Source of the DNA: Lachnospiraceae bacterium
Lineage (GTDB): Bacteria; Bacillota; Clostridia; Lachnospirales; Lachnospiraceae
NCBI GenBank assembly: GCA_016288005.1
Contig: JAEEXY010000027.1
Location: 1 to 38,331 of the forward strand
DNA: 38,331 bases
Reading direction: 5' to 3'
Shown: positions 3,815 through 10,867 of the stretch, piece by piece
Layout: the number at the start of each line of letters is the position of its first letter
Numbering within the stretch: position 1 is the first letter of the stretch
Notes under the pieces: model-generated
Seen by the model: the letters and a program-made list of their open reading frames with translations, nothing else
Told to the model about the DNA's origin: nothing
Database searches by the model: none
Position numbers and translations under genes: made by a program

Positions 3815-3851
3815 GATTGTCAACCATTGCCATCTTTCATGGTTGACAATC
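3815..3851 (+). promoter_or_regulatory. Predicted BirA operator (BirA box), also a possible terminator hairpin
   Basis: A 13-base perfect inverted repeat (3815-3827 with 3839-3851). Its core reads TTGTCAACC-N15-GGTTGACAA, very close to the known BirA box TTGTAAACC-N14/16-GGTTTACAA of biotin regulons. It lies immediately upstream of a BirA that carries the DNA-binding domain, and its right half covers the -35 box of the birA promoter, as expected for autorepression. The arm followed by a T-rich run (3852-3860) could also end transcription of the upstream regulator gene. Confidence 0.8.
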
Positions 3852-3870
3852 TTTTCTTTTGTGCTATACT
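3843..3870 (+). promoter_or_regulatory. birA-bioY promoter with extended -10
   Basis: Consensus TTGACA (3843-3848), a 16-base spacer and TATACT (3865-3870) preceded by TG at 3862-3863, which makes an extended -10. The -35 lies inside the right arm of the predicted BirA operator. Transcription would start near 3877, leaving a leader of about 45 bases. This excludes an in-frame TTG at 3843 as the start of BirA. Confidence 0.8.
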
Positions 3871-3920
3871 TACTCCCGTCGACAAAAACGCATCAAGCGT
3901 ACACACCATGGTATGAATCT

Positions 3921-4907
3921 ATGAATACAAAAGAAAAGCTTCTCGGTTTATTGGAGAACAATACGGAAAAATATCTCTCCGGCGAAGACATTGCGGAAAC
4001 GCTCAGCATCTCGCGTACCGCCGTCTGGAAAGCGGTCAACGCGCTGCGCTCGGACGGCTGCAGCATCGAAGCCGTATCGAACAAGGGCTACCGCCTGGTT
4101 TCCGATGCGGACGTACTCTCGGAGAACGGGATCAGAAGGCATCTGGACGCTTCGATCGCCGATATCGGGCTGAGCGTATACTCTGTCACCGACTCGACCA
4201 ACATACGCGTTCGCGAAGCGGCTTTATCGGGTGCCCCCGAAGGTTTTGCGGCCGTTGCCGGTTCACAGACCGCCGGACGCGGAAGGCTCGGCAGATCCTT
4301 TTATTCCCCTGCGGGCACAGGACTGTATTTAAGCCTCCTGCTGCGCCCTGCGTCACTCCCTTCGAGGCAGACGATCAAGATCACCACTCTGGCCGCCGTG
4401 GCCGCGTGTGAGGCCATAGAGGCCGTCAGCGACCGCAAGGCGATGATAAAGTGGGTAAACGATATCTTCATCGACGGCAAGAAAGTCAGCGGGATACTGA
4501 CCGAGGCCTCGTTCAGCTTAGAGAGCGACTCGGCCGAATACGTGATCCTCGGGATAGGTTTCAATATCCTGACACCCGAAGGCGGTTTTCCCGACGAGAT
4601 AAAAAATATCGCGGGATCGATCTTCGACACTCCTCAAAAGGACATCAGAAACCGTCTCGCCGCAGAGTTTATCAGCCGTTTCATGACGGCCTACAGGGCC
4701 CCTCGTTTCGGAGGCTACGAGGAGAAATACCGCGCACGGAGCCTGGCTGTGGGTCACACAGTAAACGTATTGCTGCCCGACGGACCCAAAGAAGCTTATG
4801 TTCTCGATGTGGACGATGACTGCCGCCTGATCGTAAGATATCCCGACGGCACCGAAGATTCGCTCTATTCGGGAGAAGTCAGCATAAAGCTGCCGGCACG
4901 CTTATAA
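3921..4907 (+). CDS. birA: Bifunctional biotin-protein ligase / biotin operon repressor
   Basis: A 328-residue group II BirA. It adenylates biotin and transfers it to biotin carboxyl carrier proteins; loaded with biotinyl-AMP it also represses transcription. The N-terminal winged helix (residues 1-62) contains the HTH around LSGEDIAETLSISRTAVWKA. The catalytic core has DSTN (91-94), GRGRLGR (119-125, nucleotide/biotin loop) and KWVNDIFIDGKKVSG (177-191; V replaces the usual P of KWPND). The short C-terminal SH3-like domain is present. ATG at 3921 is chosen because the in-frame TTG further upstream falls within the promoter; the Shine-Dalgarno is weak. It is followed by bioY, and a BirA box precedes it, indicating biotin-responsive autoregulation. 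Confidence 0.95.
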   Translation: MNTKEKLLGLLENNTEKYLSGEDIAETLSISRTAVWKAVNALRSDGCSIEAVSNKGYRLVSDADVLSENGIRRHLDASIADIGLSVYSVTDSTNIRVREAALSGAPEGFAAVAGSQTAGRGRLGRSFYSPAGTGLYLSLLLRPASLPSRQTIKITTLAAVAACEAIEAVSDRKAMIKWVNDIFIDGKKVSGILTEASFSLESDSAEYVILGIGFNILTPEGGFPDEIKNIAGSIFDTPQKDIRNRLAAEFISRFMTAYRAPRFGGYEEKYRARSLAVGHTVNVLLPDGPKEAYVLDVDDDCRLIVRYPDGTEDSLYSGEVSIKLPARL

Positions 4908-4979
4908 GTCCGGCTCCGGCGGCAAGCCCACGGGCCGGTCCCCGGCAAACACAGAATACAGATTAAAGAGGCTATAAAA

Positions 4980-5609
4980 ATGAATACAGCGGAAACAGTC
5001 ACAAAAAGCGGCGTCAAAGGCCGCACCTACGCAATTGCGGCAACTGCAGTCATGGCCGCGGCGCTCTGCATCATCGCGCCTTTTTCGGTTCCGATCGGTC
5101 CTGTTCCGATCTCGCTCGCCACTCTCGTGGTTTATCTCGCGGCATATGTGCTCGGCTGGAAGATGGGCGCCGTAAGCGTCCTGATCTATCTCCTGATCGG
5201 CACGGTCGGCCTGCCCGTATTTTCGGGATTCTCGGGCGGCTTCGCAAAGCTCGCGGGCCCCACCGGCGGATACCTGATCGGATATGTTCCGCTCGCGCTG
5301 ATCTCGGGACTTTTCATCCTGCTTTCCGAAAAGCTCCGCCGCAGACCTGCTGCTGCAGCCGGGCAGACCGCAGCAGCAGGTAAAGGCAGAGTATTCGATT
5401 TTATCACGCGCCGTCTGATCGAGCTCGCCGGCATGCTTATCGGCACCGCCATCCTCTACACGCTCGGCACCGCATGGTTCTGCATCCTCTCGGGTTCAGC
5501 ATTATCCAAAGCCATGACGCTGTGCGTGCTGCCCTTTATCCCTGGCGATCTGATCAAGATTTTTATCGCGCTGGTCATCGGACCGGAGCTTCGGAAACGG
5601 ATAAAATAG
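4980..5609 (+). CDS. bioY: Biotin transporter S-component BioY
   Basis: A 209-residue membrane protein of the BioY family, the substrate-binding S component of the ECF biotin importer. Signature segments are APFSVPIGPVPISLATLVVYLAAYVLG near the N-terminus and GLPVFSGFSGGFAKLAGPTGGYLIGY around residues 78-103. About six hydrophobic helices are visible. A hydrophilic Ala/Gly-rich loop (about residues 121-137) is longer than usual between helices. RBS AAAGAGG at about 4962-4968. It lies 72 bases after birA, probably in the same biotin-repressed transcript. No biotin synthesis genes or ECF ATPases are present here, so this is a scavenging unit using an ECF module encoded elsewhere. Confidence 0.95.
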   Translation: MNTAETVTKSGVKGRTYAIAATAVMAAALCIIAPFSVPIGPVPISLATLVVYLAAYVLGWKMGAVSVLIYLLIGTVGLPVFSGFSGGFAKLAGPTGGYLIGYVPLALISGLFILLSEKLRRRPAAAAGQTAAAGKGRVFDFITRRLIELAGMLIGTAILYTLGTAWFCILSGSALSKAMTLCVLPFIPGDLIKIFIALVIGPELRKRIK

Positions 5610-5771: not shown

Positions 5772-7517
5772 TCATATCTTCCAGTTATTTCTTCCGGCCT
5801 CTTTGGCCCTGTACAGTGCCTCATCTGCACGGGCGAGAGCTGCCTTTACGTCCTCGTCTTCGGGGCTGAAATACGCAAAGCCCATCGAAGCGGTGATCTT
5901 GCGTTTTCCTTCGAGTTCGGGCAAATTGATGCCGCGTACCGCATTGATTATCTTATCCGCAACATCGGGCTGGTATTTGGGCGCCACATTGTTCAGCACC
6001 ACGATAAACTCGTCTCCGCCCCAGCGGATCACCGAATCTTCCTTTCTGACAGCACTCTTTACAGCCTTAACAAACTCCTTGAGCACCAGGTCGCCGACAT
6101 CGTGTCCGAAATTGTCATTGAACTGCTTAAAGAAATCGACGTCCATTATCAGCAGCAGCATGTATTCACTGCCCGACTGATATGCCTCAAACGCGTCGGC
6201 CATCGCTTTTTCACCGAAAAGACGCGAGCCTGCGCCGGTAAGAGCGTCCTTGTTCAGCTTGTCGCTGAGCTCTCTGTTCTTTTTCTCGTATACGCCGATC
6301 TTCGATCTCCTGTAGCTGTACGACATGATCAGGAAGAATCCGATCCATGTGATGGCAGTCGCTATCAGGATGATCGTCTGATACATTCCGAAGCTCTCCT
6401 GCGCCTGCTTACGATAATGATACAGATCGTCGATATTCACGCCCATGCACACGATCCAGTCATATCTGTCGTAGAGGCGCGAATACGTTACTTTCTCGGT
6501 GACTTCGTCGGAATCCAACTTTTTGAAAGCATAATTGAGATAAACGGCTCCGTTGGCCTTAACGCCCTCGAGCTCCTCTTCGTATGCCTTCATGCCCATC
6601 TCGTTGACAACCTCGGTGGAAAGGTACGAACCCTCGGTATCCGAGAGATTGGGATGTATGAGTCTGATCGCGTAGTTGTCTCCGCCGTTAAAATCAAGAA
6701 CCTTCTGGACCCACATATAGGTCCCGTCGACATGCGTTTCGGAATATATCTTCCTGCGTGCGATATCGGTCAGCTCCGCCTCGATATCGGCATCGCTCAC
6801 GCCGCTGTCCCGGAGATTATCAGCGCACACATCGAGATAAGCGATCAGGTTGTCGACATTTTCCTTCAGCATGCTCATCTTCATCTCAAGCGCCGTGCTG
6901 TAAGTCATTCTCGCGCTGACTGATGTGATCGCCCTGGAAAAAAGTATAACGAGCAGGACGGAAACCAGCACGCCCGCAACGGCCTTTCTGACCGATTTGT
7001 GGTATTCGCTCTGCAGTTCATCCGAAGTATCGGGGAACCACGGAAGACAGCGGTTTACCCTCCTGCAGTATTTCTCGTATGCCGTGCCGAATCTTTCCCT
7101 GTAAACCTTCTCTTCGGTCTCACGCAGTATCAGCGTCATATAGAGCCAATAGAGCATTGGAAGCAGGAATGCCAGGTAATTGGCCGTCAGTATCAGCGCT
7201 CCCGAATTGATCAGCAATACGGACGAATACAGCGGATGTCTGACCCATGCGTATACTCCCGTGTGGAGCACCCTGTCCGCGCACATGTTGGTGGGCTGTT
7301 TCGCGACCACCAGCAGGCGGTACAGCATTACGACGCCGAAAACAATCGTGACGCCGCCTATAAACCAGGCCACCGACACACCTTTGTCAAGATTTGCGAA
7401 TGACAACTTCTCTATGAGGTTCACGCAGAGAATCGCTGCCAGCGTCACTCCGCACAGAATACTGATAAAAATGATCCCGGCGCTGCTGAGCGCCTTTTGC
7501 TTAGTGTTGTCGTTCAT
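5772..7517 (-). CDS. Diguanylate cyclase with N-terminal ICMT-like methyltransferase domain and Cache sensor
   Basis: A 581-residue membrane protein with an unusual domain order. Residues 10-160 resemble the isoprenylcysteine carboxyl methyltransferase / phospholipid methyltransferase family: membrane helices, then GVYAWVRHPLY (87-97), RETEE (132-136), FGTAYEKYCRRV and a final CLPW (157-160). A helix near 177-197 leads to an extracellular Cache_2-like sensor (about 205-370; TYMWVQ, RLIHPNLSDTEGSYL, YDWIVCMGVNIDD). A last helix (about 378-400) precedes a GGDEF domain with DALTG (424-428), an intact GGDEF (500-504) and an inhibitory I-site RKED (491-494) five residues earlier. It is therefore expected to make c-di-GMP with product feedback. 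It starts one base after the EAL gene stop, so the two are coupled. What the methyltransferase-like part does is unknown. Confidence 0.88.
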   Translation of the reverse strand: MNDNTKQKALSSAGIIFISILCGVTLAAILCVNLIEKLSFANLDKGVSVAWFIGGVTIVFGVVMLYRLLVVAKQPTNMCADRVLHTGVYAWVRHPLYSSVLLINSGALILTANYLAFLLPMLYWLYMTLILRETEEKVYRERFGTAYEKYCRRVNRCLPWFPDTSDELQSEYHKSVRKAVAGVLVSVLLVILFSRAITSVSARMTYSTALEMKMSMLKENVDNLIAYLDVCADNLRDSGVSDADIEAELTDIARRKIYSETHVDGTYMWVQKVLDFNGGDNYAIRLIHPNLSDTEGSYLSTEVVNEMGMKAYEEELEGVKANGAVYLNYAFKKLDSDEVTEKVTYSRLYDRYDWIVCMGVNIDDLYHYRKQAQESFGMYQTIILIATAITWIGFFLIMSYSYRRSKIGVYEKKNRELSDKLNKDALTGAGSRLFGEKAMADAFEAYQSGSEYMLLLIMDVDFFKQFNDNFGHDVGDLVLKEFVKAVKSAVRKEDSVIRWGGDEFIVVLNNVAPKYQPDVADKIINAVRGINLPELEGKRKITASMGFAYFSPEDEDVKAALARADEALYRAKEAGRNNWKI

Positions 7518-7518
7518 G

Positions 7519-9261
7519 TCAGGTTATGGGATTCGATCTTTCCCACTGCATCCCCTTTCCTCGCGTGAATGCGCGCGATTCTTCAATCGGCATGGGCTTT
7601 CCGAAGAAATATCCCTGAGCCCTCTCGCAGCCGGTCTTGCGCAGGAACTCGTAATGCGCCTCCGACTCCACGCCCTCACAAAGAGGCGCAAGTCCCATGG
7701 CCTTCGAGCCCTCGATGATGTAGGTCATCAGCATGGCTGTCTTCGGATTGCGGTCGAAGCATCTTAAGAATACCAGGTCGAGCTTCAATACGTCGAAATC
7801 ATACTCCGCAATAGTGTTCAGCGACGAATATCCGCTGCCGAAATCATCGAGCCAGATATTGTAGCCCATGTTGTGCATCTTCTCGCACTCGGTCTTGATA
7901 ACACCCTCATTGTCGTTAAGAGCGCTCTCCGTGATCTCGAGATCTAGGAAATTGCGGGGTATATTGAAGCTGTCACGCGTTTTCTCGACCGATCCGAAGA
8001 TATCGCAGACATCGAAGTCCATTCGCGAGATATTGATCGAAACCGGCACGACCGGCTCGCCCTTATCGATCAGCGAGCGGAGGTCTTCGCATACCCTTCT
8101 CACAACATATCTGTCCACAAGATATATCAGATGCGCCTGCTCCAGGGTCTCGATGAAATCGCCGGGAGAGAGCATTCCCATCTTCGGGTCGATCCAGCGT
8201 ACCAGCGCTTCATAGCCGCAGATCTCACCGCTCTTAACCCTGATAACGGGCTGGTAGAACACCTTGATATAGCCCATTTCGAGGGCCTCATCGACATGAT
8301 CCACAACATACTGCTGTTTGCGCAGCCTCTCACGGAGCATGTCGTCGTAAACACAGAAATTCACATCGTGCCTGCCCTTTATGCTGTTGCAGGCAAGTCT
8401 CGCATGGTCGCAGGCCAGGCCGATTTCGGAGCGCCTATCATCCAGGTAAAAGATACCCGCCTTCATCCTCACGCGCTTATTTACATCGACTGAACGAAGC
8501 ATCGTCTTATAGACCTGATCGACTTTTTCCTCGACATACTGCCTGTCTCCCTCGGTGCAGACAAAGAAATGGTCGTCGGAGAAACGGGCGATCGTAGCTC
8601 CCACAAAAATGTCGCGCAGGCACTTGGCCACATCGCAGAGCAACTCGTCACCCTGAGTGAATCCGTGCCTCTCGTTATATAATTTAAAGTTCGGAACATC
8701 AAAATGGATAAAAGATATCTGGCGCCTCCTGCTATCGGGCGACATCAGCATCATCTGGACCTTGTGATAAAAGAATGGCATATTGAAAAGGCCGGTCAGC
8801 TCATCGGTCTCCCTGTTTGCCGAAAGGATCTCCGCCTCCGCGAGGGAATTGCGGTTTTTGTTCATGAATTCGTTTTGATCGACATCGACGATGAATACAT
8901 AGAAATAGCTGTTATGCTCATCATAATGCAGCAGATGGCCGAAGTCCTCGATATATCTGACCTCGCCCTTTTTCGTGATGATACGGTATCGGACGTAATC
9001 ATGCCGCTTCTCTCCGAACACGGTCTGCGCCTGGATCTGGTTTTCGATCTTGTGCAGATCTTCGGGATGCACCATGCCTTTAAAGGAACCGCCGACATAC
9101 TCAAAAAACTCATCGAAAGTCTCGCAGTCGTAAAGACTTATAACATTCTGATCCGCAAACAGGATCTTTTCGTCTTCCTCAGCCTCATAGACAAAGAATC
9201 CGCCCGGAAGTCCGGAAGGGATCACTCCGTCAGAGCCGTATCTTTTTGTTTCGTCCACCAT
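7519..9261 (-). CDS. PAS - degenerate GGDEF - EAL c-di-GMP phosphodiesterase
   Basis: A 580-residue soluble protein. A PAS fold occupies about residues 15-128. A GGDEF-like domain (about 150-305) has SDDHF (228-232) at the active-site position instead of GGDEF and no obvious I-site, so it is probably catalytically dead and may be regulatory. The EAL domain (about 318-575) keeps the key residues: EALVRW (E351), SINIS, LEITES, LDDFGSGYSS (471-480), LKLD, a later EGVE and QGYFFGKPM, so hydrolysis of c-di-GMP to pGpG is expected. The ATG at 9261 follows a strong purine-rich RBS (GAGGGAGGCGG). An in-frame start 22 codons earlier is less likely. It forms an operon with the downstream cyclase, one base away. 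Confidence 0.92.
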   Translation of the reverse strand: MVDETKRYGSDGVIPSGLPGGFFVYEAEEDEKILFADQNVISLYDCETFDEFFEYVGGSFKGMVHPEDLHKIENQIQAQTVFGEKRHDYVRYRIITKKGEVRYIEDFGHLLHYDEHNSYFYVFIVDVDQNEFMNKNRNSLAEAEILSANRETDELTGLFNMPFFYHKVQMMLMSPDSRRRQISFIHFDVPNFKLYNERHGFTQGDELLCDVAKCLRDIFVGATIARFSDDHFFVCTEGDRQYVEEKVDQVYKTMLRSVDVNKRVRMKAGIFYLDDRRSEIGLACDHARLACNSIKGRHDVNFCVYDDMLRERLRKQQYVVDHVDEALEMGYIKVFYQPVIRVKSGEICGYEALVRWIDPKMGMLSPGDFIETLEQAHLIYLVDRYVVRRVCEDLRSLIDKGEPVVPVSINISRMDFDVCDIFGSVEKTRDSFNIPRNFLDLEITESALNDNEGVIKTECEKMHNMGYNIWLDDFGSGYSSLNTIAEYDFDVLKLDLVFLRCFDRNPKTAMLMTYIIEGSKAMGLAPLCEGVESEAHYEFLRKTGCERAQGYFFGKPMPIEESRAFTRGKGMQWERSNPIT

Positions 9262-9433
9262 CAAATACCGCCTCCCTCTCCAATGATCACGGTCTTTGCA
9301 TCCGATGTGCACCCAAACACACATCACATATACAAAACTCCGATATTATCGTACACCTTTTCAGGGTGATTTTCCAGCAAAAAATCAGTATCGGCAAACA
9401 GTTTTTTGTAAGCGACACGATTCGTCTATTCCC

Positions 9434-9462
9434 TTGAACTTTTCCGCATTTTCATGTATAAT
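9434..9462 (+). promoter_or_regulatory. Promoter of the beta-helix gene
   Basis: TTGAAC (9434-9439), a 17-base spacer and TATAAT (9457-9462). A sequence resembling the LacI-type operators of this window, TTTACACGTTTTA (9474-9486), lies just after the expected start of transcription, with a degenerate right half. The rest of the gap between the divergent EAL gene and the beta-helix gene (9262-9505) shows nothing else I can support. Confidence 0.7.
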
Positions 9463-9505
9463 AGAATTCTGGTTTTACACGTTTTATCAACAAGGAGGTT
9501 CGATT

Positions 9506-10867
9506 ATGTTGTTTAAGAAAAAAGCAGCCGTTCTGATCATAGCCATGACGCTGGTTTTAGCGCTGATCGCGCCCGCCGCGGGTGTACAGGCATATACACC
9601 GCCGGCACAGGCAGGAGAGATAATTCAGGCAGACGGCGTAAAATACATGGTTCTCTGGAGAGGTGAAGGCAACAGATCCGTCCTTATTTACGACTATCCG
9701 GACGTCAGCGCCAAGACCGTAACCATACCCAAGACCGTAAACGACGGCCTGTACGAATGGAAGGTTATCGGCGCTCTGAGCGGCGCGTTCAAAAACTGCA
9801 CCACTCCGAAGACTATCGAGATCCCCAAGGATACCAATATCAACTGGTATTACATGTGTCCCGACGCGTTCATAAACGGCGCTAAACAGACCATCAAGGT
9901 ATATCCCGCAGACGGCGAGTGGAACACGCTCTATCTGATCCTCGAGATCAACGGACCGAAGCCCGCTTTCCTCGCGTCAAAGATATATGAGACCTGCGGC
10001 GTTTCCTCTTACGCGTCCTACACTCCCGTTGCCAATACCGAGGATACTCTCTATGTGACCGTTCCCGCCGGAACCTACACGCTTGACAATGCAAAGGATC
10101 CGGGAAAGGGCGCAGAGATCAGGGTTTATTCGAACACCACCCTGTATCTGAAGGGCGTAACCTTTAAGCGCGGCACTACCGATGCCGCCCTGAAAAAGCA
10201 TATGCTCACGCTCGGCACCACCGACCTGAAGATGGCCGACGGCAGCGTTAATGCCAAGAAGTACAACGGCGGCAGCAATATCCAGATCCTGTACGGAACA
10301 TTTGACAACGGAACAAAGCCCGGCGCAAACAATATCTGCCGCGGCTCCCATCTGTCCGGTGTTACGATAAAGGGCACCACCTTCAAGTATCTGCCCGATT
10401 CGCCCCTGACCGACGGTATGACGAACTCGCACTGCATCGAGCTGGCGGGCGTTAAGAAATTCACGATCAAGAGCTGCAAATTCTACAACAACTCGAACTG
10501 CTTCTTCAACAATGAGGCTGTCCAGATCGAGTCCTGCGGCTCCGATCCCACCGCGCAGACTCATACCAATGTCGCCGCTCCTCTCGACGACACCCAGACC
10601 AGCAACGTCACGATCACCAAGTGCCGCTTCGAGGGCTTCAATTACGGCTGCGGCAGCAACCACCTCAGCGTCAACGACTGTTACAAGAACATGAAGTTCA
10701 CTTACAACACCTTCATCGGCTGCCAGAAATACTGTGTCTGCCTCTACAACTACGACACAGTCACGATCGCCTACAACAAGATGAAGAACTGCAGCACGCT
10801 GATCCTTGATCCCAGCGACCACAAATCGACCAACATCAAGACAAAGAAGAATAAGACCGTGAAATAA
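9506..10867 (+). CDS. Secreted right-handed parallel beta-helix protein
   Basis: A 453-residue protein with a classic signal peptide (MLFKKKAAVL, a hydrophobic core, then a likely cut after GVQA at residue 29). The mature part has repeated short strands with Asn and Cys ladders typical of right-handed beta-helices (FKNCT, FYNNSNCFFNN, KCRFEGF, YNTFIGCQKYCVCLYNYDTVTIAYNKMKNC). This fold is common in pectate lyases and other polysaccharide-acting enzymes and in surface proteins. I cannot see a definite catalytic set, so its substrate is unknown. RBS AAGGAGG at 9492-9498 fixes the ATG at 9506; earlier in-frame codons lie upstream of the promoter. No dockerin, sorting signal or S-layer domain was seen, so it is likely released. 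Confidence 0.85.
   Translation: MLFKKKAAVLIIAMTLVLALIAPAAGVQAYTPPAQAGEIIQADGVKYMVLWRGEGNRSVLIYDYPDVSAKTVTIPKTVNDGLYEWKVIGALSGAFKNCTTPKTIEIPKDTNINWYYMCPDAFINGAKQTIKVYPADGEWNTLYLILEINGPKPAFLASKIYETCGVSSYASYTPVANTEDTLYVTVPAGTYTLDNAKDPGKGAEIRVYSNTTLYLKGVTFKRGTTDAALKKHMLTLGTTDLKMADGSVNAKKYNGGSNIQILYGTFDNGTKPGANNICRGSHLSGVTIKGTTFKYLPDSPLTDGMTNSHCIELAGVKKFTIKSCKFYNNSNCFFNNEAVQIESCGSDPTAQTHTNVAAPLDDTQTSNVTITKCRFEGFNYGCGSNHLSVNDCYKNMKFTYNTFIGCQKYCVCLYNYDTVTIAYNKMKNCSTLILDPSDHKSTNIKTKKNKTVK

Follow-up and report, generated by a model that had tools for sequence, protein, structure and literature searches.

The stretch of DNA analyzed here, hereafter the window, spans 38,331 nucleotides of a Lachnospiraceae genome and encodes on its minus strand (positions 5772–7517) a 581-residue protein that joins a PEMT/ICMT-like domain, an sCache_2 sensor, and a GGDEF domain. 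The gene is a single ATG-started frame without internal stops, and the domain architecture, as read from the frame, Pfam matches, and alignments, is certain. The membrane methyltransferase-like domain (residues 1–165; 7023–7517), delimited by Pfam and NCBIfam matches, a profile match to 4a2n, and hydropathy, carries two SAM-pocket motifs located by an alignment of 42 rows: GVYAWVRHPLY (residues 87–97; 7227–7259) and RETEE..FG..Y..Y..VNRCLPW (residues 132–160; 7038–7124), the latter including RETEE (132–136), FGTAYEKY (143–150), and CLPW (157–160). A linker and the first Cache-flanking membrane helix follow (residues 166–205; 6903–7022; alignment and hydropathy), leading into the predicted extracellular sCache_2 sensor (residues 206–375; 6393–6902; Pfam and phmmer), within which an alignment of orthologues places a predicted short-chain carboxylate pocket (Y267, W269, H288, Y329, F331, and K342; 6492–6719). 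The second Cache-flanking helix and its linker (residues 376–422; 6252–6392; full-length model and hydropathy) connect to the GGDEF diguanylate cyclase domain (residues 423–581; 5775–6251; Pfam, phmmer, and alignment), where the I-site RKED and the GGDEF motif are evident from the sequence and alignments (residues 491–504; 6006–6047). A sequence-only reading of the window had described one uninterrupted frame with four methyltransferase motifs, a Cache-like sensor, and an intact GGDEF with an I-site, and the frame, motif positions, Pfam matches, and RxxD at 491–494 bear it out on each point. That reading also knew of no description of such a fusion. In agreement, the titles and abstract openings of literature on GGDEF cyclases combined with ICMT, phospholipid, or SAM methyltransferases yielded no paper on this architecture.

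Membership of the N-terminal half in the PEMT/ICMT methyltransferase family is nearly certain, judging from profiles and motifs. Taken alone, the window copy lies just below the curated Pfam cut-offs for PEMT (residues 81–145, E 4e-5, 24.4 bits against 25) and ICMT (residues 82–135, E 2e-4, 22.0 bits against 24), and it matches the NCBIfam protein-S-isoprenylcysteine O-methyltransferase model over residues 81–160 at E 2e-13, but with 50.5 bits against a cut-off of 160. Four orthologous fusions described below strengthen the assignment, which the sequence-only reading had proposed: all four exceed the PEMT cut-off (29.4, 32.7, 37.9, and 47.3 bits), three exceed that for ICMT, and a profile built from the five fused domains matches the solved ICMTs of M. 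acetivorans (4a2n, E 1.1e-10) and an insect (5vg9, E 4.2e-8). The SAM-pocket residues R93, H94, P95, and Y97 of the RHPxY region and the pair E135 and E136 are all present in the window copy. What ICMT-family members do in bacteria is reported to be mostly unexplored, RhlM having been the first of them to be characterized; its H122 and E162 are reported SAM contacts conserved across the family (PMC11069360). By our reading of the motifs, these two residues probably correspond to H94 and the EE pair. MaICMT, the insect ICMT, and RhlM have the C-terminal SAM-pocket motifs in common with the fusion but are not known to be joined to a signaling domain as the window domain is. The sequence network in the RhlM report (PMC11069360) took only proteins of 150–330 residues, so long fusions were excluded.

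Conservation of the fused domain is centered on the SAM-pocket motifs. G87, Y89, R93, P95, E135, and E136 are identical in all 42 rows of the methyltransferase alignment, as are G106 and Y150, while H94 is replaced by asparagine in 37 rows and in two of the five fusions. Among the 42 rows, some genes appear twice and seven rows are distant members (L089–L095); rows shorter than 110 residues (L026) and loci known to repeat a gene were left out. Among three close pairs of fusions, the SAM-pocket half (residues 81–162) gave dN/dS values of 0.070, 0.053, and 0.051, and the GGDEF domain gave 0.057, 0.058, and 0.084, indicating that purifying selection constrains the SAM-pocket half as strongly as it does the cyclase in these pairs. 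Comparisons with the two distant fusions gave 0.25 and 0.30 for the SAM half, values that say little either way because synonymous sites were close to saturated, and several GGDEF and Cache ratios were not computable. The N-terminal half of the domain (residues 8–80) is looser, with dN/dS of 0.27, 0.13, and 0.18 in the close pairs and differences at 40–42% of positions between L066 and either the window copy or L065. Seven other pairs from the family were tried, of which three gave both ratios (N-half/C-half: L047/L051, 0.086/0.074; L047/L097, 0.172/0.071; L041/L046, 0.424/0.108) and the remaining four had at least one saturated dS. The N-half was looser in all three, clearly so in two, suggesting that the fused domain evolves much like other members of its family.

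Structure prediction of this half was of low confidence. AlphaFold2 modeled the full-length protein from 14 sequences with a mean pLDDT of 68.1, in which residues 1–165 scored 37–76 per ten-residue block, and the methyltransferase half alone from five sequences with a mean of 60.5. A Foldseek search of the latter low-confidence model against the PDB returned 53 matches at E ≤ 10, none of them at E ≤ 0.001. The domain probably comprises four membrane helices (approximately residues 14–32, 47–65, 97–114, and 115–132), although the third and fourth form one continuous hydrophobic stretch (100–131) in the hydropathy profile and the split between them is our placement. Based on hydropathy and family knowledge, the addition of four helices, an even number, would leave the Cache domain outside the cell, GGDEF inside, and the loops that carry the two SAM motifs on the cytosolic side.

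The sensor domain matches sCache_2 (PF17200) over residues 213–372 (E 1e-13, 51.5 bits against a cut-off of 25), and a phmmer search with the Cache domain retrieved 5g4y (E 4e-7), 4k08 (E 7e-4; presumably Adeh_3718), and 4exo (only E 0.88). A gut receptor study reports that pyruvate- and lactate-binding sCache_2 domains have in common an aromatic sandwich of two residues and a set of three hydrogen-bonding residues, with a further position that is histidine in pyruvate binders and leucine in lactate sensors, and gives the 4EXO pocket as Y96, F98, H109, F148, W150, and K161 (PMC12415202). The window counterparts are Y267, W269, H288, Y329, F331, and K342. Of these, H288, Y329, F331, and K342 align by phmmer with PscD (5g4y) and, weakly, with 4exo, whereas Y267 and W269, which lie outside that alignment, were assigned by the DGTYMWV motif only. 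All six are invariant across an alignment of 14 orthologues, namely the five fusions and nine relatives that lack the methyltransferase domain (L072, L059, and L060 not included). Like PscD (5g4y/5g4z), 4k08, and 4exo, the window domain has the pocket residues set out in PMC12415202, with histidine at the pyruvate-type position, but those proteins are chemoreceptors and the window domain is approximately eight residues longer between W269 and H288. Given these six residues, carboxylate sensing is likely, and the outside signal is best guessed to be a pyruvate- or propionate-type acid; acids of this type are abundant in the rumen. A C2/C3 carboxylate at sCache_2, which the sequence-only reading had not named, appears to be the likelier primary signal. 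We know of no methyltransferase domain in GcbC, a diguanylate cyclase of Pseudomonas fluorescens that likewise contains a Cache domain. GcbC reads citrate or isocitrate through a putative pocket described as an arginine triad, in contrast to the Y/W/H/Y/F/K pocket of the window protein (PMC6050961).

On the output side, the GGDEF match (residues 423–578, E 7e-37) retains the GGDEF motif at 500–504, D459, and RxxD at 491–494, which we take to be the active site, the metal-binding aspartate, and the I-site, respectively. The GGDEF motif is kept in all 14 aligned orthologues and the I-site in four of the five fusions, L067 being without the arginine. The GGDEF part also matched, by phmmer, the ammonium-transporter chains 8qj3 and 8qpf, in which a metabolic membrane protein likewise precedes GGDEF, although their front part is a transporter rather than methyltransferase-like. 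Directly upstream of the fusion, on the same strand, lies a gene encoding a PAS_3 domain, a degenerate GGDEF (SDDHF), and an EAL domain (7519–9327; Pfam and sequence), the stop codon of which is one base before the fusion start (TGA-C-ATG). It retains the motifs EAL, NIS, EITE, DDFG, KLD, EGVE, and QGY, to which we ascribe the catalytic meaning they presumably have in the EAL family, and a cyclase and phosphodiesterase made together would plausibly constitute a local switch. An orthologue of this gene neighbors four of the five fusions, lying on the opposite side in G086 and running off the contig in G020; in L067, no EAL gene occurs within 3.6 kb before and 6.5 kb after the fusion. None was seen in the 12 loci that lack the methyltransferase domain, where absence is weak evidence if little flanking sequence is available (a total of 3 kb for L070, 1.2 kb upstream of L071, and a contig edge at L072), and two of these loci (L069 and L074) have another GGDEF-like frame close by. 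Elsewhere around the gene pair, at 3843–5609, a biotin ligase with an HTH domain adjoins a BioY gene that converges on the fusion gene, an adjacency also found in G020 and G005. Beside the EAL gene, a frame at 9296–10867 gave a weak beta-helix match (24.3 bits against a Pfam cut-off of 25.9) and also occurs in G005.

The fusion recurs beyond the window. Full-length orthologues were found in four other assemblies, with identities by multiple alignment of 92% (G020, the same locus as L065), 81% (G005, L066), 55% (G086, L076), and 50% (L067); all four are MAGs, three titled Lachnospiraceae and one Clostridia, and G020 is a yak rumen MAG by title. Carriers are a few gut-type bacteria, some from ruminants, amounting to 3 of 24 genomes of the genus and 2 of 397 drawn from the family (that of the window and G086). 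The genes flanking the fusion in G005 largely follow the order of the window on either side, except that two other frames occupy the place of the response regulator. The occurrence of the same architecture and open frame in four other assemblies excludes a chance frame or local misassembly. Neither a missing match to the methyltransferase family nor an artefactual join, the outcomes that would have spoken against the sequence-only reading, was encountered; yet cyclase orthologues lacking the methyltransferase and stand-alone methyltransferase relatives both exist.

Twelve Cache-GGDEF orthologues without the methyltransferase domain were retrieved at 51–60% identity (L068–L075, L077, and L078, together with L059 and L060 from G336 and G163), L071 and L072 being near copies of each other. 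Ten of these loci came from the same scan as the fusions, and several of the ten have titles that name the rumen or another ruminant gut source. The existence of these twelve indicates that a Cache-GGDEF cyclase either acquired the domain or once had it and lost it; their similarity to the fusions sets in just ahead of the first Cache helix. The best trees of both halves require two changes, and the five fusions group together in just 23% and 8% of the bootstrap replicates for the two halves; nevertheless, a single fusion clade is not rejected by the AU test (p 0.33 for Cache-GGDEF with 17 rows; p 0.16 for the methyltransferase, its 42 rows reduced to 28 by removing duplicates and the distant L089–L095). 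The domain may have been gained once and then lost in the lines of L059/L060 and L071/L072.

Stand-alone relatives of the methyltransferase domain are mostly 159–200 residues long and 29–42% identical over the matched part, and the subfamily is sporadic, with 26 of 397 family genomes positive at E ≤ 1e-20, two fusions included. Among the first nine stand-alone neighborhoods, two had an adjoining GGDEF or HD_5 (HD-GYP-like) gene. Across 37 stand-alone loci, one of which (L119) gave no methyltransferase frame, only three GGDEF frames (L102, L120, and L064, the last also with EAL) were counted among 450 frames, with no null computed, and a general link of stand-alone relatives to c-di-GMP genes was dropped on this count. 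Individual arrangements include an ICMT-like gene followed after 42 bases by an HD_5 gene (L106, 6389–7534) and one followed after 292 bases by a multi-helix GGDEF gene (L102, 6264–8619). The frames beside stand-alone members are often class I methyltransferase-like, hydrolase-like, or otherwise metabolic, as labeled by eye and motif. A recurrent cluster around ICMT-like genes of 175 and 299–310 residues (L124 and L127–L130), which also contains frames resembling, by eye, class I methyltransferases, hydrolases, and reductases, may perhaps represent an undescribed lipid or small-molecule pathway.

The five-sequence profile was used to seek further fusions to GGDEF in 392 genomes of the order, and PF04140 to seek them in 348 genomes of the phylum. 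Inspected by eye, frames of at least 350 residues from the order search, except those of G542, G736, and the window, had no Cache or GGDEF part. Five frames of 318–485 residues read from the phylum search likewise had none, although PF04140 at E ≤ 1e-5 misses the window genome itself and would therefore miss similar fusions. Related PEMT/ICMT-like domains were instead found, in the same order, ahead of an alpha/beta hydrolase (L048, 577–2016), a beta-lactamase-family domain (L090, 1950–3641), DUF218 (L091, 2423–3871), and a class I methyltransferase (L092, 2360–3589). Given these unrelated partners, the cyclase fusion looks like one case of a readily joined membrane domain.

We tentatively favor, at slightly less than an even chance, a membrane-bound diguanylate cyclase with two inputs, an external short carboxylate and a SAM-using membrane domain. 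According to this model, sCache_2 would bind pyruvate, propionate, or a similar short carboxylate outside the cell, and its two flanking helices would set the activity of the cytosolic GGDEF dimer. The PEMT/ICMT-type domain, which precedes the first Cache helix and has a SAM pocket predicted to face the cytosol, may act on the same helix bundle through the SAM/SAH state or a methylated membrane substrate, and the neighboring EAL protein would oppose the cyclase. For this scheme we infer the topology, SAM binding, methyl transfer, the ligand, the activity of both c-di-GMP enzymes, and the coupling. The twelve orthologues without the methyltransferase suggest that Cache-to-GGDEF signaling does not need the domain. 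Against two inputs, the tree allows loss of the methyltransferase, and the position that probably corresponds to a SAM contact of RhlM is the one at which asparagine so often replaces H94.

A rather less probable explanation is a bifunctional tether, in which the methyltransferase would run its own membrane reaction, the cyclase would answer the carboxylate only, and the fusion would hold both activities in one place or at a fixed dose with no mutual control. The enzyme-like conservation of the SAM half and the metabolic frames, labeled by eye, that often flank stand-alone relatives are consistent with a simple tether, and the ready joining of related domains to the unrelated partners listed above keeps it alive. 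Two features hint instead at a signaling role, neither decisively: every fusion has the domain at the identical position ahead of the Cache helix, and four of the five have the c-di-GMP gene pair.

It is improbable, more so than the tether, that the domain is a non-catalytic membrane or dimerization module kept for its helices. MASE-type sensors on GGDEF proteins are multi-helix N-terminal membrane inputs, as in the fusion, although the MASE-type sensors known to us are without SAM motifs. The existence of orthologues without the domain and the divergence of residues 8–80 would suit such a module, but a mere anchor should not need a dN/dS of 0.05–0.07 in close pairs, nor conservation centered on the SAM-pocket motifs in all 42 rows, even if G106 and Y150 are invariant as well. 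In the portions of a review of c-di-GMP inputs available to us, MASE1 is listed among putative sensory domains of unknown purpose (PMC8846402). Finally, although the window comes from a draft genome for which contamination is estimated at 5.98%, the open frame repeated in four assemblies and the gene order kept in G005 make an assembly artefact or chance frame exceedingly improbable.

The fusion adds a variant to membrane-input cyclases. In the same portions of that review, chemosensory systems supply the only methyltransferase named, and CBS domains are mentioned as potential binders of SAM (PMC8846402); the notion that SAM could be an input is therefore not itself new. Coupling of methylation or SAM to c-di-GMP is plausible but unproven, and we consider it doubtful that a membrane methyltransferase was recruited such that cyclase output is set jointly by an external carboxylate and by SAM/SAH balance or lipid methylation. 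A natural fusion with a measurable cyclase output, for which orthologues lacking the methyltransferase serve as controls, offers a practical handle on the role of the domain. If the two halves are coupled, a membrane methyltransferase would join the inputs of c-di-GMP signaling, providing a direct link of methyl-group metabolism to c-di-GMP in Lachnospiraceae.
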